A stretch of 39,711 nucleotides of DNA, taken from assembly GCA_017859745.1 (NCBI GenBank), contig JAFMML010000025.1, positions 1-39,711 on the forward strand, written 5' to 3'. Of this stretch, positions 529-10,012 are shown in pieces; the stretch's first letter is position 1, and every line of letters begins with the position of its first letter. A program made the position numbers and the translations under genes. The notes beneath the pieces were generated by a model. That model saw only the letters and a list, made by a program, of their open reading frames with translations, did not search any database and was not told the DNA's origin. This DNA comes from Planctomycetota bacterium. Lineage in GTDB: Bacteria; Planctomycetota; Phycisphaerae; Phycisphaerales; SM1A02.

Positions 529-1404
529 GTCGAGAGGCCTCCACGCACCGGACGCATTGGCGAAGCCACACCACCGGGCCCGGTCGGTGTCGCACCTTCC
601 GCCTCAGATATCGGACCTCTCGATCGAGACCCCGTTGCTCCGCAGGAATCGGTGTCCGCGTCACCTACAAAATCATGGGGCAAGATCGGCATGTCGTTGG
701 TCTCTGAAGCGTCTCGGAAGCCGTGGGACCGCCGGTCGCGTCGTCCGCGTGGAGGTTGATCGACGAATTCCACCCTCAAACGGAGTTCCACTCGGGGAAT
801 CGAGCAACATCGATCGCGTCGGCCCAACCACTTCCACCCCATTGGTTGCGACATCCGGGCATCCCGTCATCACCCGATTCGACTCCAGCCCTCGTCACGC
901 GACGCTGTTCGCAACGCCCCCACAACTCGTAAACAGCTGCAGTCAATGGAATAACGCCTTTCTCCGCCAGCAGCATGAATCGTCGAACATCGGCCCGTGC
1001 CCGAATCCGCTCCTCCCACACCACTCCAGGGGCACCGAGGTACGAGCAACTCGCATGGAGGTTCGCGGAGAATTCCACGCGAATCCAAGATCGAGTTGAA
1101 CGGAGAGGCGACCGCCTGGACGCCCTCAGGATCTCCCCCCGTCCCCATCCGGACAACCCTCAAGGGTGCAGGTGCCTTCCCCATCCTGGTCCAGACCGCG
1201 TGGTTGGTCTGGCGGGGTCGTCGGGAACATCCGGAAGTCCGGGGTTGCACCGCCGCAGTTGGGGGAATACCCAAGACTCCGCCTTCCTGGGACTTGCCTC
1301 GCAGCTGGCGAATTCGACCTTATGCCAGCAGCACCACCGCCTTGGCGGGACTGCAGAGGTCATGCCCTGGCCCATGGGCTTGGGTGAAGAAAGGTCTTGT
1401 CCAC
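529..1404. other. 876-bp gene-free intergenic region
   Basis: It lies between two divergent genes. Open frames of 60-130 codons exist on both strands, but their translations are rich in Arg, Pro and Ser, lack any recognisable domain, and look like chance frames of GC-rich DNA. From 529 to about 1150 I see nothing beyond the GGAGG ribosome binding site of the leftward gene. The right part (1156-1379) is dense in inverted repeats and is listed separately. Confidence 0.6.
1156..1379 (+). other. Cluster of small hairpins, possible structured leader RNA
   Basis: Five compact inverted repeats and one palindrome follow each other upstream of the dockerin/PEP-CTERM gene. They are ACCCT/AGGGT (1156-1167), CCAGACC/GGTCTGG (1191-1212, with an outer CCCC/GGGG pair at 1179 and 1217), TTGGG/CCCAA (1259-1274), GCTGGC/GCCAGC (1304-1329), CCGCC/GGCGG (1337-1348) and the palindrome GCCCATGGGC (1370-1379). 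None is followed by a T-run. I do not recognise a known riboswitch consensus. High GC makes short stems common, so the evidence for a functional RNA is weak. Confidence 0.25.
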
Positions 1405-1911
1405 ATGTTCAACCAATTCCCGCAAGGTTCGACGTTGAGGCCCGCTCTCCTGGGCATCCCACTGGTCGCCCTCGCCTTCACGGGCCCCACGTTCGCCAGC
1501 GAGGCGGACCTCGATGGCAATGGCGTGATCGATGCGGCCGACCAGAGCGTGCTCCTCGCATCGTGGGGGGACTGTCCGGCTCCGTGCCCGTCCGACCTCA
1601 ACGGCGACGGTGTGGTCGATGGCATCGACTTCGCCATCCTCCTCGATGCGGCATCCGCCGGGCAGACCGAGACCGGAGGAAGCTCGGACACCGTCGACAG
1701 CGACGGCCTCTACGAAGATGGTGAAGGAGCCGGGGCGACCGAGGACAACGACCTGTTCGGTTCGCAGGAGCCGACCTCTCCCAACGGCGATGGCGGTGAT
1801 CTCAACATTCCCATTCACGCCGTCCCTCTGCCGGCTCCGGTTTGGATCGGCATTGCTGGCCTTGCAGGTGCGATGATCGTGCGTCGCCGTTTGCTCGGCC
1901 GTCTGGCGTGA
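1405..1911 (+). CDS. Secreted dockerin-like protein with PEP-CTERM sorting tail
   Basis: 168 residues. The N-terminus has a signal peptide (hydrophobic ALLGIPLVALAFTG, likely cut after TFAS). Residues 34-80 carry two EF-hand/dockerin type I calcium loops, DLDGNGVIDAAD and DLNGDGVVDGID, separated by the WGDCPAPCPS segment common in planctomycete dockerins. A Gly/Asp/Glu-rich linker follows. The C-terminus reads VPLPAPVWIGIAGLAGAM then VRRRLLGRLA: a VPLPAP motif, a transmembrane helix and a basic tail, the layout of exosortase-processed PEP-CTERM proteins. Expected role: cell-surface or matrix protein trimmed by an exosortase encoded elsewhere; no exosortase is in this window. ATG 1405 is chosen because it gives a normal signal peptide; GTG 1384 is in frame and possible. 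Its 3' end meets the next gene tail to tail with 26 bp between. Confidence 0.8.
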   Translation: MFNQFPQGSTLRPALLGIPLVALAFTGPTFASEADLDGNGVIDAADQSVLLASWGDCPAPCPSDLNGDGVVDGIDFAILLDAASAGQTETGGSSDTVDSDGLYEDGEGAGATEDNDLFGSQEPTSPNGDGGDLNIPIHAVPLPAPVWIGIAGLAGAMIVRRRLLGRLA

Positions 1912-2459: not shown

Positions 2460-2599
2460 GTCTCGTCCTCGTGCAAGGCCCGCGGTCGAGTCGAACCTAC
2501 GGCGAGCTCGACGACCTTTGCCCACTTCGAGCGGAAACGCCTCCCCCGCCGCCCGGACTCCGGCGATTCGCGAGTCGGCTTCGAATCCGAGAGCACGCC

Positions 2600-3007
2600 G
2601 TGAGGGAATCCCGAGACGCCGTGCCGAATCCACCCGCCAAGACCTGCCCGACCTGCGGACGGAACTTCGAATGGCGCCGCAAGTGGGCGCTCGACTGGGA
2701 CTCGGTGCGGTACTGCTCGAGCCGCTGCCGTCGTGGCCCCGGATTGGTCGGCCGCGAGGCGGAACAGGCGATCCTGGATCTCCTCGCCCATCGGAGTTCC
2801 GACGCCTCGATCTGCCCGAGCGAAGCGGCACGCGCGCTCGCTGCCGCCGGTTCCCAGCCGGACTCTTGGAGATCCTCGATGCCCAAGATCCACGATGCGG
2901 CCCGCCGCCTCGCCGTCGAGGGGCGCATCGAGATCACGCAGGGCGGCCGCGTGCTCGATCCCACCGACCTTCGCGGGCCGGTGCGGCTTCGAAGACCTCG
3001 CCGATGA
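2600..3007 (+). CDS. DUF2256 and DUF3253 domain protein
   Basis: About 135 residues. Residues 12-42 match DUF2256: [14 protein letters not shown] followed by YCSSRCR, a four-cysteine (CxxC...CxxxC) probable zinc site. Residues 50-130 match DUF3253, a small winged-helix-like domain, with [10 protein letters not shown], a [17 protein letters not shown] stretch and [14 protein letters not shown]. The two domains are known together in one protein. DUF2256 genes often sit near photolyase or cryptochrome genes, and here the next gene on the opposite strand is a photolyase fusion, with ends convergent and 109 bp apart. The start is uncertain: GTG 2600 and GTG 2621 both precede the zinc motif and neither has a strong ribosome binding site. 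Function is not established; nucleic-acid binding is a guess from the folds. Confidence 0.8.
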
Positions 3008-3116: not shown

Positions 3117-5657
3117 TCAGAACAGCATCGACTCGCCGGCCGGAGGGACACCCGCCTCCGACGAGTCGCGAACGGCCCAACGAGCCTCTCGCAGAACCGC
3201 ACCGGCAAGATCCAGACCCGCAAGCCACGCGCCCTCGACGCTGCCGGTTCGAGCGTAGTCGCCGCCGAACAGCACGCCTTCATGCGTCGAGACCCTGGGG
3301 ACCGTGGCGATGGCGACGGCGCTCGGCTCGACCCGCATGCCGGATGGTCGCGCGTAGCGCCATCGATGCGCGACGCAGCTGGCGATCTCGATCGCCTCCC
3401 CACCGAGACCACCGACCGCATCGACGAACATCGCCGAAAGCGCGCCGGCCACCGTGTCCCGGTCGTCCTCCAGATGAACCGTCGTCCACGCCTCGCTCGC
3501 CTCGAGCACGAATGCGACACCGGGGGTCTCGTCGCGTCCCGGCTTCGAACCCTGGTCGACGATCGAGCACCATGACGACTTGCCGGCCGACTCGAGTCGG
3601 CCAAACCGAGTCTCGAGCGGACGAGTCAGTTCGATCATCGCCACCCACGCCGGCGCCGTCGCGCGTCCGAGGTCTCCGACGCCGAGGGCTTCATCCACAT
3701 CGACACCCGAGGCGTCGAGCAACGCCCCGGCCTGAGGACCGGGCGTCGTCACGATCACCGCGTCCCATCCCGAGCTCGGTGCCCGATCCTCGATGTGGAC
3801 GGTCCATCCGCCGCCTTGCTCGCGCTCGAGGCGTTCGACCTTCGACCCGCAGGAGAGATCGAGATCGGCGGCGAGGTGCTTGGCGATCCTGTTCATGCCG
3901 CCGACACCGACGAACTCGCCGTCGTCGGCGAGCGACCGCCTCTCGACGACGCGGCCGACCTCGTCGCATCTGACCAGTTGGGCGTCCCAGCGGTCGACGA
4001 CGCCCACGTCGCGCCATGCCCGGACGAATCGTCCGAAGCGCGGATCCCGAACCGTGAACGACGACGCGCCGTGATCGAAGCGCCCGCCCGACCCGCGTCG
4101 GGTGCTGATGCGTCCGCCGGGCCCCCGCGCCTTGTCGAAGACCCGGACCGCCACGCCGTGATCGGCGAGCGTCCGTGCCGAGGCGAGGCCGCAGATGCCC
4201 GCGCCCACCACCGCGACCCGCAGCGGACCTCCAGCCGCGCCACGGCGCTGCAGGCGCGAGACCCGACGCTCGTATCCGGCGACGTCGAGACGAGACGCGT
4301 GATCGGCGGGGTCGCGCCCCCGCACCGCGCCGAGCACCGGCTGCTCGGGTTGAAACGGTCGATCGAAGAGGCCGAGGCACCAGAGAAGGCCTCCGGCGCT
4401 CGAGGGATCGCACCCGTCCAGCGCGTGCCGGTTGTTCAGATCGAACAGACGACGGATCGCCTCGTCGGGCGACTTCGACCAGAGAGGGATCGCCTTGCCC
4501 CAGGTCATGCGCACGTTGTTGTGCAGCTCGCCCTGCCACCGAAGGCTGCGTTGTGCGAGATCCCACAGCGTCTCGCCGGTCGTCCCCCGCTCGAGCGTCT
4601 CGTCGTCGAGCCGATCGCGGGGGTCGTTCCGATGATCCGCCAGCGTCTCCTGCGACCATCGCGGCAGGACTTCGACCGACTCGTGCTCGGGACGCCGGGC
4701 CGCCCAGTGCCAGGCGAGCTCCCGCCAGATCAGCAGTTCGTCGAGGTACTTCTCGGCGCGGTCGTGGCAGGCGTCGCGGGCGATTCGAAACGGCGACACC
4801 ATCCCGTAGTGAAGGTAGGCCGACATGCGGCTGACCCCGTCCCGAGCCGCGTCGTTGCGATCGCGGCCGTAGCGCTTCAGCCCGTGCGAGCGGAACGCCG
4901 TCCAACGCCGCAACCCCGCGTCGGTTCCACCGGGCGTGTCGAACACCGGTCCGATCGAGTGATCGATGTCGAGAGCCCCCACGATCGCCGCGATCTGCGC
5001 ATCGTCGGCGTCTGCGAGATCGAGAGAACCCTTCGGAAGCGTCGAAGACTCGACTCCGGTCCTGCCGTCCGGCCATGTCGCGACGAGACGGCCTCGACGC
5101 TCACCTTCGAGGCGATCCCGAAACACGAACGCCCGGTCCGGCGCCTTCCGAGACAGCGACATCGGAACGACGCAGGCGGCGTCCACCGCGTACACCGGCG
5201 CCGAGGTCGAGGCGGCGATCGCCTCGAGCCATGCCGGCCAAGGCGCGGCCGGCATCTCTTCGGTCACGACGGCCGAGGCCTCGCGAGCCAGAGGCCCCAC
5301 GACCGAGGGTTCGCCGGGCTGCCGGACAAGCACCGCCAGATCGAGACCTCGCTTCCGAAGTCCGCCCTGCAGGTCGCGAAGGCCTTCGAGCGCGAACGTC
5401 GCATGCCGATCGTTGTTGAATCGGTGTCGCCCGCCGACGACCGCCACCGCCAGCAATGGCACCTCGAGGCGGTGGGCCAGCTCGCACGCCACATCGAAGG
5501 CGGGGTTCTCCTCGACCCGCATGGCGTGGTGGACCCACCACAGCACCGGGCGGCCCCCTCCAACGGGATCCCCGCCCTCCGCGGAATTCGCCACGGCCGC
5601 CTCGATGGAACGGGTTCGCTCGGCGAGGTGATCTGGAAGGAACTCGATCGGATGCAC
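3117..5657 (-). CDS. Fusion: class II-like DNA photolyase + renalase-like FAD oxidoreductase
   Basis: 846 residues with two enzymes in one frame. Residues 37-200 are the photolyase N-terminal domain (VLWWVHHAMRVEEN, then DRHATFALEGLRDL). Residues 240-465 are the FAD-binding helical domain: RMSAYLHYGMVSPF, DELLIWRELAWHW, NNVRMTWGKAIPLW, then LDGCDPSSAGGLLWCLGLFD. These look most like class II CPD photolyases (RMYWAKKILEW, LDGRDPNGY). Residues 478-830 form a Rossmann FAD/NAD(P) oxidoreductase of the renalase-like COG3380 type: VAVVGAGICGLASA, VFDKARGPGGRISTRR, FDHGASSFTVRDPRF, and a C-terminal GVLFGGDYARTGSVEGAW FAD contact. In other bacteria these are usually separate, sometimes neighbouring genes. 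GTG 5657 is chosen for GGAG 9 nt upstream; a TTG at 5738 would add 27 basic residues with no support. I see no frameshift at the junction (about residues 465-478). The expected photolyase activity is light-driven dimer repair; the substrate of the second half is unknown. Confidence 0.88.
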   Translation of the reverse strand: MHPIEFLPDHLAERTRSIEAAVANSAEGGDPVGGGRPVLWWVHHAMRVEENPAFDVACELAHRLEVPLLAVAVVGGRHRFNNDRHATFALEGLRDLQGGLRKRGLDLAVLVRQPGEPSVVGPLAREASAVVTEEMPAAPWPAWLEAIAASTSAPVYAVDAACVVPMSLSRKAPDRAFVFRDRLEGERRGRLVATWPDGRTGVESSTLPKGSLDLADADDAQIAAIVGALDIDHSIGPVFDTPGGTDAGLRRWTAFRSHGLKRYGRDRNDAARDGVSRMSAYLHYGMVSPFRIARDACHDRAEKYLDELLIWRELAWHWAARRPEHESVEVLPRWSQETLADHRNDPRDRLDDETLERGTTGETLWDLAQRSLRWQGELHNNVRMTWGKAIPLWSKSPDEAIRRLFDLNNRHALDGCDPSSAGGLLWCLGLFDRPFQPEQPVLGAVRGRDPADHASRLDVAGYERRVSRLQRRGAAGGPLRVAVVGAGICGLASARTLADHGVAVRVFDKARGPGGRISTRRGSGGRFDHGASSFTVRDPRFGRFVRAWRDVGVVDRWDAQLVRCDEVGRVVERRSLADDGEFVGVGGMNRIAKHLAADLDLSCGSKVERLEREQGGGWTVHIEDRAPSSGWDAVIVTTPGPQAGALLDASGVDVDEALGVGDLGRATAPAWVAMIELTRPLETRFGRLESAGKSSWCSIVDQGSKPGRDETPGVAFVLEASEAWTTVHLEDDRDTVAGALSAMFVDAVGGLGGEAIEIASCVAHRWRYARPSGMRVEPSAVAIATVPRVSTHEGVLFGGDYARTGSVEGAWLAGLDLAGAVLREARWAVRDSSEAGVPPAGESMLF

Positions 5658-5726: not shown

Positions 5727-5754
5727 TTGCCCGGCCAATCCGTCGATCTATAGT
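5727..5754 (+). promoter_or_regulatory. Promoter of the cysteine-rich/efflux operon
   Basis: TTGCCC (5727-5732) and TATAGT (5749-5754) are separated by 16 bp, giving 4/6 and 5/6 matches to the sigma-70 hexamers in otherwise GC-rich DNA. The predicted start of transcription is near 5761, which puts the TTG/ATG at 5754-5757 outside the transcript and favours ATG 5799 for the first gene. Confidence 0.5.
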
Positions 5755-6345: not shown

Positions 6346-7791
6346 ATGTCTTCCCGTAGACCCGCCTCGCTCGGAGGGGTGATCGTGGCGCTCGCCCTTG
6401 CCGGCGGGTGCGCCAGCCTCGACGCCACGACCGATCTCGATGTCGCCGCCGATGCGACCCGCGATCGAATCGGCCGGTCGCCCGCCGCGTTGTCCTCGTC
6501 GGACGTCGACGTCTCCATCGAGTCGTGGGAAGGTCATGAACCACTGACCCCCACGCTTGCGATCGAGACCGCGCTGCAACGCGCCCCCTCCGTGGTCGCC
6601 GGCAGGCTGAACATCGCCGCGGCCCGAGCCCGGTTCGCAGCCGACGCGACACCGCCCAATCCCGTGGTGCGGTGGATGGTCGGCGTCCCCCTCGATCCGG
6701 TCGAGGCGGTGCCGTTCCTCCTCGGCCTCTCTCAGGACCTCGCCCTGCTGCTCGAACGCGGGGTGATGGAGGAGATCGCCCGCCATCGCCTCGACGCGGA
6801 GGTCCTCTCGATCGCCGAGACCGTGGTGGCGACGGCGTTCGATGTGCGTCGAGCCCACGCAGAGGCCGTCGCCGCCACCGAGCGAGTCCAGGCGCGAGAA
6901 GCGCTGCTCGAACTGGCTCGCCGCCGCCTTCGCGAAGTCGAAGACCGGCTCGCGATCGGCGAGGCGTCGCCGATCGAACGGGACGAGTTCACCGCCGGGG
7001 TCGAAGCCGCCGCCGCATCGCTCTCGGCAGACCGCCGAGATCGGCGAGTCGCGATGCTGCGTCTCCTTCACGCGATGGGTTGTCCCGATCGCGATCTCGA
7101 CTTCCCGCTCGTCGCATCGACGGCGTCCGTCAGCGAGATCGACCTCGATCCGCCCTCGGTGACCGTCGACTCGCAAGGCGACCGTCCGATCGAACGACGC
7201 CTCGTCGAAGTCGCCATCGATCACCGCCTCGATCTGCTGGCCTCCGATCTCGAGGCCCGGGCGAAGCTTGTCGAGATCGGACTTGCGGAGCGGTCGGTCT
7301 GGCGGGGCCTCTCGATCGGCGTCGGCATCGATCGAGACATGGAGGGCATGCGCGGCGTTCCCTTCTCCGGCGCCGTGCCGCTGCCGATCTTCGACGACGG
7401 CCGCATCGCAGGAGCCGCGGCTCTCGCCGCCTGGCGTCTCGCGTTGATCGATCGAGTGGCACTGATCCAGCGGATCGAGTTCGAGGTCCGTTCCGCGTGG
7501 GGCGACCTCGAGTCGTCCGAGGTCACCCTCGGGCACCGCCGCGCCGAACAGCATGAACTCGAGAGGATCGCGACCGTGACGATGGAGCGGTACGAGGCGG
7601 GCCTGACGACGCTGGAGACGGTCCGTCGCGCCGAACGGGACACGCTTGCGGCGAGAATCGCCGTGATCGATGCCCGACTCGCGACGGAGATCGCCCACCT
7701 CGATCTTCGACGGTCGATCGGAGGTCCGCTGCACGGGCCGATCGTCGCCTCCAACTCGAAGGTTCCCGCGGACCGAAGGGACCCCTCGTGA
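6346..7791 (+). CDS. TolC-family outer membrane efflux lipoprotein
   Basis: 481 residues. A lipoprotein signal (ALALAGGCAS, lipid on Cys near residue 22) is followed by the two-fold repeated, largely helical outer membrane efflux protein domain (about 65-270 and 280-465). It contains long coiled-coil helices such as ATERVQAREALLELARRRLR and a short insertion near 240-270 (SVTVDSQGDRP). Length is normal for this family (about 450-490). It forms the outer membrane channel of a tripartite exporter. ATG 6346 has GGAG 7 nt upstream. The stop overlaps the next start (GTGA), and the following genes supply the periplasmic adaptor, ATPase and permeases. Cargo is not evident from sequence; the upstream cysteine-rich protein hints at metals, but that is speculation. 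Confidence 0.88.
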   Translation: MSSRRPASLGGVIVALALAGGCASLDATTDLDVAADATRDRIGRSPAALSSSDVDVSIESWEGHEPLTPTLAIETALQRAPSVVAGRLNIAAARARFAADATPPNPVVRWMVGVPLDPVEAVPFLLGLSQDLALLLERGVMEEIARHRLDAEVLSIAETVVATAFDVRRAHAEAVAATERVQAREALLELARRRLREVEDRLAIGEASPIERDEFTAGVEAAAASLSADRRDRRVAMLRLLHAMGCPDRDLDFPLVASTASVSEIDLDPPSVTVDSQGDRPIERRLVEVAIDHRLDLLASDLEARAKLVEIGLAERSVWRGLSIGVGIDRDMEGMRGVPFSGAVPLPIFDDGRIAGAAALAAWRLALIDRVALIQRIEFEVRSAWGDLESSEVTLGHRRAEQHELERIATVTMERYEAGLTTLETVRRAERDTLAARIAVIDARLATEIAHLDLRRSIGGPLHGPIVASNSKVPADRRDPS

Positions 7792-9320
7792 GCGCCTCGC
7801 ACTCGGTCCAGCGTCCGCCTCGCCATCCGGCGCGGCTTCTGGTCCCGGCCACGGTCCTCGCAGGGTTCGCCCTGCTTCTGGCCTTCGCCTTCCGCGACGC
7901 CTTGCGACCGTCGGTGCCGGTGCAGGCGGTCCCGGTCGCGGTCCGCAGCATCGAAGTCTCCGCGGGATCCTCCTCGGCAACCGTGGGCGAGGCGATTCTC
8001 GCACCGGGCTGGATCGAGGCCGATCCCTACATGCACCAGGTGGTCGCCCTGGTCGACGGCGTCGTCGAGGAGATCCTCGTTCTCGAGGGCACGGCGGTGA
8101 ACGCTGGCGAGCCGGTGGCGCGACTCGTCGCCGAGGACGCCCGCATCGCGGTCGATCAGGCCGAAGCCGATCTGGCCGACGCGACTGCCGCCGTGGCGAG
8201 GGCCGCTGCAGTGCTGTCCGCCGCCGAAGCCGACCTCGAGCATCTCGTCGCCCCCCAGCGCCGGGTGGCTGCGGCGCGGGCCGACGTCGATCGTCTCGCC
8301 GCCAGCGCCGCGGCGACGGAGGCCTCCGCACGGGCGCTCGACGCCACCGCGCGGGAACTCGCCGACGAGCTCGCGCGTCTCGAGGCGCTGGTCCCCCGAG
8401 GCGGCGCCTCGGAAGCCGCCGTGGAACGCCTGCGACTGCGTGTCGAATCGGCGTCCGCCGCCGCCGACGCTCGGCGCCGCGAAGCGGAGGCCGCCACCCA
8501 GGCGATCGCGGTCGCGGAGGCGGAACGACGGGCCGCGGAACGGGACCTCGAACTCCTCATCGCCGAGACCCTTGCCGTCGCCGAAGCAAAGGCGCTGTTC
8601 GAGGCGGCGGAGGCCGGTCGAACCCGAGCCGTCGCCGACCTCGCCGACGCGCGCCTGCATCTCGATCGCACCGTGGTGCGGAGTCCGATCGACGGAGTGG
8701 TCGCCGAACTCGAGGCCGTGCCGGGCTCGACGCTCGTCGCCGGAAGCGCCGGTGGTGCGGTCGTGCTCCGCGTCTTCGACCCGCGCCGCCTCGGCGTGCG
8801 CGTGGACGTTCCGATCTCGGAAGTCGCCCGCGTCGCGGTCGGGCAGAGGGCGGAGATCGTCGTCGACACGCTTCCCGGAGTCGTCTTCGAAGGCGAGGTC
8901 TCGCGTCTGGTGCGGCGGGCGGATCTCGCGAAGAACACCCTCCCCGTCAAGGTCCGCCTACTCGATCCCGACCCTCGCCTCGTGCCCGACATGCTTGCGC
9001 GGGTTCGGATCCTCACCGAGGGCCGAGCGGACGCCGACGGAGCCGCGACGACGACGGCCACGCGGGTCTTTGCACCGGAGGCCGCATGGTCGAGCGAGAG
9101 TCGGAGCGGCAGCGTGACCTCGGTCGCGGTCGTGGGCGTTCGCGAAGGCCGTGGGACGGCTTCGCATCGGACCCTGGTCCTCGGAGAGACCCGCATCGAC
9201 GGTTGGCGAGAGGTCGTCGAAGGCCTTCGGCCGGGCGAGTGGGTGGTTCTGGGGGCGGCGCCCGCCGACGGCGCCGCGGTCCACATCGTGGATGCGACCT
9301 CCGAGGAGGCGAGACCATGA
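7788..9320 (+). CDS. HlyD/MacA-type periplasmic adaptor protein
   Basis: 510 residues. One N-terminal membrane anchor (about 17-38, PATVLAGFALLLAFAF) comes first. The first half of a lipoyl/barrel-sandwich domain is at 85-125 (VVALVDGVVEEILVLEGTAV, then AGEPVARL), and a long Ala/Glu/Arg coiled-coil hairpin spans about 120-290. The second lipoyl half is at 298-320 (VVRSPIDGVVAELEAVPGST), followed by a beta-barrel domain (VPISEVARVAVGQRAEIVVD) and a membrane-proximal domain ending at LRPGEWVVLGAAPADG. It bridges the inner-membrane ABC transporter and the TolC-like channel. GTG 7788 overlaps the upstream stop by 4 bp, and its own stop overlaps the ATPase start (ATGA), so translation is probably coupled. 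Confidence 0.88.
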   Translation: MSASHSVQRPPRHPARLLVPATVLAGFALLLAFAFRDALRPSVPVQAVPVAVRSIEVSAGSSSATVGEAILAPGWIEADPYMHQVVALVDGVVEEILVLEGTAVNAGEPVARLVAEDARIAVDQAEADLADATAAVARAAAVLSAAEADLEHLVAPQRRVAAARADVDRLAASAAATEASARALDATARELADELARLEALVPRGGASEAAVERLRLRVESASAAADARRREAEAATQAIAVAEAERRAAERDLELLIAETLAVAEAKALFEAAEAGRTRAVADLADARLHLDRTVVRSPIDGVVAELEAVPGSTLVAGSAGGAVVLRVFDPRRLGVRVDVPISEVARVAVGQRAEIVVDTLPGVVFEGEVSRLVRRADLAKNTLPVKVRLLDPDPRLVPDMLARVRILTEGRADADGAATTTATRVFAPEAAWSSESRSGSVTSVAVVGVREGRGTASHRTLVLGETRIDGWREVVEGLRPGEWVVLGAAPADGAAVHIVDATSEEARP

Positions 9321-10012
9321 CCGCGTTCATCGAGTGTCGCGGGGTGTGCCGCGAATACCGTCGCGGCGAGGAGATCATCCGCCCGCTCGACGAGCTCGAC
9401 CTGGACCTCGACCGAGGATCGTTCGTCGCGTTGATGGGTCCTTCCGGGTCGGGCAAGAGCACGCTGCTCAACCTTCTCGCGGGAATCGACCGACCGACCG
9501 CCGGGACCGTGCGCGTCGATGGGACCTCGATCGGGGAACTCTCGCGCGGCGAGCTCGCCGCATGGCGGCGCCACGCGGTCGGGTACGTCTTCCAGCTGTA
9601 CAACCTGGTGCCGGTGCTCACCGCGTACGAGAACGTCGAGTTGCCGTTGCTGCTGCACGACCTGTCCCGCGGAGAACGACATCGTCGCGTCGCGGAGGCC
9701 CTCGAACTCGTCGACCTCGTCGATCGCCATCGCCACCTTCCCCGGCAGCTGTCCGGAGGTCAGGAGCAACGGGTCGCCATCGCCCGCGCGATCGTGACCG
9801 ACCCGGCCATCCTGTTGGCCGACGAGCCCACCGGCGATCTCGACCGGACCGCCGCGGACGCGATCATGTCGCTGCTGGAACGCCTTCATCGCGATCTCGG
9901 CAAGACCCTCGTCATGGTGACCCACGACCCCGCCGTCGCGGCCCGCGCCGAGACCACGCTGCATCTCGACAAGGGCCGGCTCGTGGCCCGGACCGCGGGA
10001 GCTTCCGGATGA
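9317..10012 (+). CDS. ABC transporter ATP-binding protein (MacB/LolD type)
   Basis: 231 residues, a single nucleotide-binding domain. Walker A is GPSGSGKST (about 38-46). The Q-loop region FQLYNLVPVLTAYENVELPL is typical of the MacB/LolD family. The signature motif is LSGGQEQRVAIARA, Walker B is ILLADEPTGDLD, and the H-loop is MVTHDP. The family powers mechanotransmission exporters with FtsX-fold permeases rather than classic substrate importers. GAGG precedes ATG 9317 at about 10 nt, and the start overlaps the adaptor stop. Both following genes encode the matching permeases. Confidence 0.92.
   Translation: MTAFIECRGVCREYRRGEEIIRPLDELDLDLDRGSFVALMGPSGSGKSTLLNLLAGIDRPTAGTVRVDGTSIGELSRGELAAWRRHAVGYVFQLYNLVPVLTAYENVELPLLLHDLSRGERHRRVAEALELVDLVDRHRHLPRQLSGGQEQRVAIARAIVTDPAILLADEPTGDLDRTAADAIMSLLERLHRDLGKTLVMVTHDPAVAARAETTLHLDKGRLVARTAGASG

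Follow-up and report, generated by a model that had tools for sequence, protein, structure and literature searches.

Photolyases are light-driven DNA-repair enzymes. The closest described counterparts of the protein considered here are, for one half, the class II cyclobutane pyrimidine dimer (CPD) photolyase of Methanosarcina mazei (MmCPDII, PDB 2xry/4cdn) and, for the other, the bacterial renalase of Pseudomonas (PDB 4zcc/4zcd/5krq and 3kkj). The gene that joins them lies in a 39,711-nucleotide stretch from Planctomycetota bacterium (assembly GCA_017859745.1, contig JAFMML010000025.1, positions 1 to 39,711), which as a whole is called the window in what follows. With MmCPDII the window protein shares the fold, the Trp triad and the equivalents of Glu301, Met379, Asn403, Trp421 and Arg441 (residue names such as Trp381 and Tyr345 follow the M. 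mazei class II numbering), but it belongs to a separate clade, carries a second flavoprotein domain behind the photolyase, lacks Tyr345, and has Tyr376, Tyr380, Lys384, Trp431, Met443 and Lys451 replaced. With bacterial renalase it shares the fold and 51 of 59 conserved positions; here, however, the renalase half sits behind a photolyase in one chain, and its activity is predicted from sequence.

According to the available part of PMC7660482, human renalase oxidises the 1,2- and 1,6-isomers of reduced nicotinamide adenine dinucleotide (phosphate), NAD(P)H, with no activity towards 1,4-NAD(P)H. The same source attributes these isomers to non-specific reduction, photochemical reduction included, a statement made about cofactor regeneration outside cells, and describes them as inhibitors of dehydrogenases. 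A third point of comparison is provided by light-induced gene clusters of Pseudomonas (LitR regulons), in which, as far as the accessible parts of PMC9758184 and PMC5507510 go, photolyase- or cryptochrome-type genes stand beside genes for a flavin adenine dinucleotide (FAD) oxidoreductase, a short-chain dehydrogenase/reductase (SDR) and LitR. These clusters resemble the neighbourhoods of free-standing renalase genes described below (PMC9758184 and PMC11417400, both in part), but their genes are separate, and their FAD oxidoreductases are at most candidate relatives of renalase; PSPTO_1118 of Pseudomonas may be another kind of amine oxidase.

One frame with two flavoprotein halves

The fusion gene occupies positions 3120..5657 on the minus strand: 846 codons run from a GTG at 5657 to a stop codon at 3117-3119, and translation from the GTG yields 846 residues in a frame free of stops. 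A preliminary description of this DNA had proposed one 846-residue frame without giving the strand; translation bears out the frame and places it on the minus strand, where a TTG at 5738 offers an alternative start upstream in the same frame (873 amino acids), and the plus-strand frame at 3117-5657 is interrupted by a stop. The same description had named the two halves as a class II-like photolyase and a renalase-like oxidoreductase, with a GxGxxG motif near residue 480. Both names agree with the Pfam, NCBIfam, PDB and fold matches, and the dinucleotide-binding loop was located at residues 485-490 (4188..4205, minus strand).

First, the photolyase half (residues 37-466; 4260..5549, minus strand) matches Pfam DNA_photolyase (PF00875) at residues 38-169 with 47.4 bits (cut-off 26.6), and NCBIfam phr2 (TIGR00591) over residues 37-466 with an E value of 1e-78 and 265.5 bits, below the curated cut-off of 550.05. 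Its closest solved chain in a PDB search, for residues 34-475, is the M. mazei class II photolyase, and residues 3-467 of the structure model match 4cdn with Z 41.4 at 27% identity. Second, the renalase half (residues 479-827; 3177..4223, minus strand) contains the Pfam domains NAD_binding_8 (483-546) and Amino_oxidase. The closest solved chain for residues 480-823 is Pseudomonas renalase, and model residues 479-827 match renalase 4zcc with Z 42.8, at 1.7 Å over 327 residues and 32% identity; human renalase follows with Z 33.9, and other amine-oxidase-type entries reach at most 30.1 among the matches listed. Third, the junction (residues 457-484; 4206..4289, minus strand) is short, and both halves are complete, in an alignment of 21 fusions. 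The distance from the invariant Arg456 to Gly485 of the GxGxxG motif is 29 positions in the window; across 35 fusions it varies between 22 and 36, and 25 of them share a value of 25.

AlphaFold models were obtained for the window protein (mean predicted local distance difference test, pLDDT, 86.2; predicted template modelling score, pTM, 0.90) and for a Halochromatium homologue (mean pLDDT 89.8, pTM 0.90). For two large domains, a pTM of this size suggests a defined mutual placement, and none of the 50 PDB entries listed for the window model spans both halves. In the host genome the fusion is the sole full-length match to the window protein, accompanied by two weak partial matches, one to another photolyase-like frame and one to another FAD motif. 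Rfam at gathering scores gave no match in the window, and PADLOC returned a weak FAD-motif match and nothing else. Based on these results the fusion of a photolyase and a renalase in one frame is confirmed, and we refer to the N-terminal half as a CPD photolyase that is class II-like and belongs to a clade of its own, with light repair as its presumed activity.

Spread and ancestry of the fusion

A scan of GTDB genomes returned 21 loci, each matching both halves, from Planctomycetota, Gammaproteobacteria, Deltaproteobacteria, Myxococcota, Desulfobacteraceae and others, the isolate Halochromatium roseum DSM 18859 and the complete genome CP043547.1 being among them. Twenty of these loci form one open frame, and one (L037) is split over two frames. 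A frameshift at the junction, or two separate genes in relatives, had been suggested beforehand as what might undo the fusion, and neither is what these relatives present, as 20 of the 21 stay open through both halves. With the window taken from a draft of 147 contigs, an assembly or reading-frame artefact joining two genes could be suspected; such an artefact is refuted by the 20 single-frame relatives, which come from other assemblies and include an isolate and a complete chromosome, and we give it next to no credence.

The frequency of the fusion was estimated in even samples of genomes, in which the best two candidates per genome (Planctomycetota and Gammaproteobacteria) or the best three (Myxococcota) were scored and matches above a limit recorded, so that the counts are lower bounds, most of all those of free renalases. 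Matches extending into both halves were found in at least 14 of 392 genomes of Planctomycetota, the phylum of the window, in at least 3 of 369 of Gammaproteobacteria, the class of Halochromatium, and in at least 21 of 282 of Myxococcota, the phylum of L037, where a single in-frame stop interrupts two of the 21 matches and a further five are split, cut by a contig end or partly matched. Among genomes near that of the window the fusion occurs in 4 of 61, the window's own counted. Class II photolyases and renalases encoded by genes of their own are commoner than the fusion in the samples of Planctomycetota and Gammaproteobacteria. The earlier remark that the two activities are normally separate genes therefore stands for these two groups, but not in the sense of a one-off, since the architecture recurs. 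When all candidates were scored in the 21 fusion genomes, a second photolyase match was present in 12 and a second renalase match (1e-20) in none, and among plasmid records ten match one half and none covers at least 80% of the query. The distribution of the fusion is thus wide but patchy. A literature search with little reach into subscription journals found no paper on a photolyase-renalase fusion; both halves belong to known families, and the joined architecture may be described in journals beyond that search.

For phylogenetic analysis, duplicates (L001, L004, L005, L049, L050 and L066) were left out. The photolyase tree also omits L037, which is in two frames, and the photolyase set omits L131, which is truncated at a contig end; excluded from the renalase set were the partial L142 and all loci before L096 (identical or overlapping places). 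In the photolyase-half tree, which has no outgroup and is unrooted, 34 fusions form one clade (Shimodaira-Hasegawa-like approximate likelihood ratio test, SH-aLRT, 100) versus 42 standalone photolyases. The latter fall into a clade like M. mazei and a second clade mostly from Planctomycetota, and a long-branched standalone photolyase, L160, adjoins the fusions (support 81, later 74). In the second standalone clade (such as L148-L157 and L161-L166), the equivalent of Glu301 is Gln in 15 of 26. When 14 Myxococcota fusions were added, the fusion clade held (support 100) and came to include L174 and L175. The photolyase of L174 (5318-7063, plus strand) stands in a 12-kb region that contains no renalase, possibly because the renalase half was secondarily lost, and that of L175 ends 21 bases before the contig end. 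The renalase tree does not separate the 35 fusions from the 51 standalone proteins but mixes them (13 changes), although a single fusion clade is not rejected there (approximately unbiased test, p 0.259; log-likelihood difference 29.4). The simplest reading is one fusion event followed by losses, and exchange of renalase halves is possible.

The tryptophan triad and its surroundings

According to the available part of PMC5885780, the chain Trp381-Trp360-Trp388-Tyr345 is nearly strictly conserved in class II photolyases, a water cluster at Trp388 is surrounded by Tyr380, Lys384, Glu387, Ser342, His356 and Asp357, and Tyr445 of the C-terminal segment lies 4.0 Å from Tyr380, a distance that would place the segment running into the spacer near the terminal end of the triad. 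The class-specific triad 381-360-388 is present in the window as Trp386, the first residue (4500..4502), Trp365 (4563..4565) and Trp393, the terminal one (4479..4481, all on the minus strand), and its members occur in 48, 46 and 48 of 48 fusions, respectively. Equivalents of Arg256, Glu301, Met379, Asn403 and Trp421 were likewise found in all 48 fusions, and that of Arg441 in 47; these six residues we take to be catalytic in the M. mazei enzyme.

Such retention argues against the photolyase half having turned from CPD repair to another lesion or to the role of a cryptochrome-like photoreceptor. In favour of that alternative, the photolyase halves form their own clade and carry substitutions, Asn for Tyr376 and Phe for Trp431 among them, and the other photolyase match in 12 of 21 fusion genomes means that CPD repair need not fall to the fusion in those genomes; on balance we hold it to be unlikely.

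The surroundings of the last tryptophan are another matter. Tyr345, which falls in an alignment gap in the window, is found in 10 of 48 fusions versus all 42 standalone photolyases, Lys384 in 3 versus 40, Glu387 in 8 versus 37, and His356 in 2 versus 37. Tyr376 occurs in none of the fusions and 40 of the standalone proteins, and Trp431, Met443 (Arg in all 48 fusions) and Lys451 occur in none of the former and all of the latter. Of the positions that at least 90% of standalone proteins conserve, 80 in all, nine are lost in the set of 34 fusions, namely, 8 of 27 within 342-388 or 427-451 versus 1 of 53 elsewhere (Fisher p 5e-4). Judged from these alignments, the photolyase halves keep the triad, but the surface around its last Trp appears rebuilt in most fusions.

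Possible function and genomic context

Recurrence of the fusion in planctomycetes, myxobacteria and proteobacteria hints at joint work of the two halves on light damage. We tentatively propose, as a possibility still short of being probable, a bifunctional light-damage repair protein whose photolyase is fed internally by the renalase half. The renalase half would take a hydride from non-productive 1,2- or 1,6-NAD(P)H isomers, its putative substrates. It would be held rigidly against the face of the photolyase at the triad end, with Trp393 (M. mazei Trp388) marking the presumed docking face, and during photoactivation its reduced FAD could then re-reduce the radical on the terminal Trp, whereby the oxidised FAD of the photolyase would become working FADH- without a diffusing reductant. 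Docking and wiring of this kind are suggested by the short and nearly fixed spacer, the confident models, the C-terminal segment near the triad end and the rebuilt surface, and the data are compatible with a supply of electrons from the renalase half to the photolyase. Ordinary NAD(P)H, which the preliminary description had considered as the source of electrons, is a doubtful one given the inactivity of human renalase on 1,4-NAD(P)H (PMC7660482, in part).

Several observations weigh against this proposal. Some concern the surface around Trp388: Asp357, which also binds the water cluster, persists in 34 of 48 fusions and is found in all 42 standalone proteins; Ser342, in 4 of 48 fusions and 0 of 42 standalone proteins, is unconserved there too; Tyr380 is found in just 15 of 42 standalone proteins (in none of the 48 fusions, 47 of which have Thr); and Tyr445 is rare among standalone proteins. 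Moreover, the region 342-388/427-451 was picked after the sites had been seen, and fusion-specific conserved sites are less strongly enriched in it (p 0.015 with a conservation threshold of 88% and 0.007 with one of 80%). Three Myxococcota fusions (L182, L189 and L193) retain Tyr345, Lys384 and Glu387, so that a change of the exit is not required by the fusion; L174 has the altered exit surface and yet no renalase nearby, and together these four weaken any strict rule by which the renalase replaces the exit. Others concern the protein as a whole: the segment before Arg446 has a pLDDT below 50 in both models, the phr2 profile places the window protein under its class II cut-off, the fusions are interspersed in the renalase tree, and renalase is described as a scavenger of isomers rather than as a feeder of a protein acceptor (PMC7660482, in part). 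Owing to the exceptions L182, L189, L193 and L174, and to the post hoc choice of region, our confidence in the wiring is kept low.

How far the renalase half itself is preserved bears on a further alternative, in which it would modulate the photolyase half, either as a sensor of redox state or nucleotides or as a structural cap. A set of 51 standalone renalases has 59 positions shared by 75% or more of its members, and at every one of them the residue most frequent among 35 fusions is the standalone one. Fusion-specific residues passed at two positions only (495 and 594). Of 29 positions with stronger conservation, 0-7 are missing in standalone renalases, 1 in the window, 4 in L018 and about 7 in L034 once an extraction artefact is set aside; the gaps at 799-810 in L021, L028, L029, L034 and, probably, L048 (and at 764-766 in L048) arose because sequences were trimmed where the BLAST match stops, and residues 799-810 are present in the fusion alignment for L021, L028, L029 and L034. 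A degenerate renalase half is thereby ruled out for most fusions, which miss no more conserved positions than standalone renalases do, and this speaks against a sensor or cap. The exceptions, which speak for such a role and count against internal feeding, are L036 and L038, the clearest cases of such loss, without 8 and 9 of the 29 positions, respectively; likewise in favour of that role, the fusion L176 (5233-7605, plus strand) has a C-terminal FAD domain strongly diverged from renalase. We consider a sensor or cap improbable.

Nearly as likely as the internally fed photolyase, and thus similarly tentative, is that the chain holds two light-damage repair enzymes that exchange no electrons, the fusion just ensuring their joint expression. 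The photolyase would mend pyrimidine dimers, and the renalase would return NAD(P)H isomers made by light or stress to NAD(P)+, which suits the photochemical origin of these inhibitors of dehydrogenases (PMC7660482, in part). The retained core residues of the renalase, and the old Tyr345 exit retained in three fusions, also fit. For mere co-expression, however, any linker would do, whereas the near-constant spacer across phyla and the pTM of 0.90 in two homologues suggest a fixed geometry; in addition, the altered Trp388 surface is left unexplained.

Gene neighbourhoods fit both readings. We examined 52 free renalases, 24 from the Gammaproteobacteria sample and 28 from Planctomycetota (21 among the matches listed and 7 from near genomes). 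In 10 of the 52 genomes (G722, G815, G745, G475, G049, G771, G500, G795, G156 and G009) the free renalase has a PF00875 or PF04244 gene no more than 8.5 kb away, where 0.49 genomes would be expected; random placement of 90 such genes gives P = 3e-11 for ten or more, ignoring contig ends and the clustering of photolyases among themselves. In G745, G156 and G475 the renalase and photolyase matches or frames are within about 100 bases of each other, and in G407 a class II-like photolyase gene lies about 4.6 kb from the free renalase. MerR-type genes adjoin four free renalases (L096, L104, L107 and L110) and DCC1-like genes six, with one representative of each confirmed by Pfam, and SDR genes stand beside free renalases at some loci among L096-L147. 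Free renalases near such varied photolyases (PF00875, PF04244 and once class II) are reminiscent of the Pseudomonas clusters (PMC9758184, in part), which would make a covalent link unnecessary and so favours enzymes that are not coupled. This clustering with photolyase, MerR-type, SDR and DCC1-like genes makes a light-response context for renalase possible.

Proteins of PF04244, which we take to be prokaryotic 6-4 type photolyases, adjoin some free renalases and 9 of 36 fusion loci examined, namely, 5 of 22 (L021 and L033 confirmed by Pfam) and 4 of 14 Myxococcota loci (BLAST). They represent a different photolyase branch, and none is fused to a renalase in the loci examined; four of these neighbours of free renalases and fusions were checked by Pfam and the others by BLAST. 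At L033 three photolyase-type genes stand in succession, with a second photolyase (PF00875, PF03441; 7830-9989, plus strand) directly behind the fusion gene and the PF04244 gene in front of it. In the window the convergent neighbour of the fusion gene encodes a DUF2256-DUF3253 protein (2471..3007, plus strand; Pfam), and genes related to it by BLAST lie beside 5 of 22 fusions (window, L018, L019, L021 and L033). Further away, a Dockerin-like protein (997-1908, plus strand; weak Pfam match) ends in a VPLPA motif and a hydrophobic tail, presumably resembling a sorting signal; a similar frame with the VPLPA motif occurs at L019 and a related frame at L018. On the other side, an efflux operon (6346-10009, plus strand) encodes an outer membrane efflux protein and an HlyD-type adaptor (Pfam), followed by an ATP-binding cassette ATPase (frame inspection).

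The function of bacterial renalases is, to our knowledge, open, and we know of no dedicated enzyme that keeps the flavin of photolyases reduced. The occurrence of the fusion in several phyla and the clustering of free renalases with photolyases tie these two questions together, and a single purified protein would allow both to be tested. A docked renalase domain might pass electrons from damaged NAD(P)H to the photolyase FAD and so make a self-sufficient photolyase, with free renalases doing likewise in trans for other photolyases, a reading that, taken as a whole, we regard as less likely than not. If it were true, one product of light damage would pay for the repair of another.

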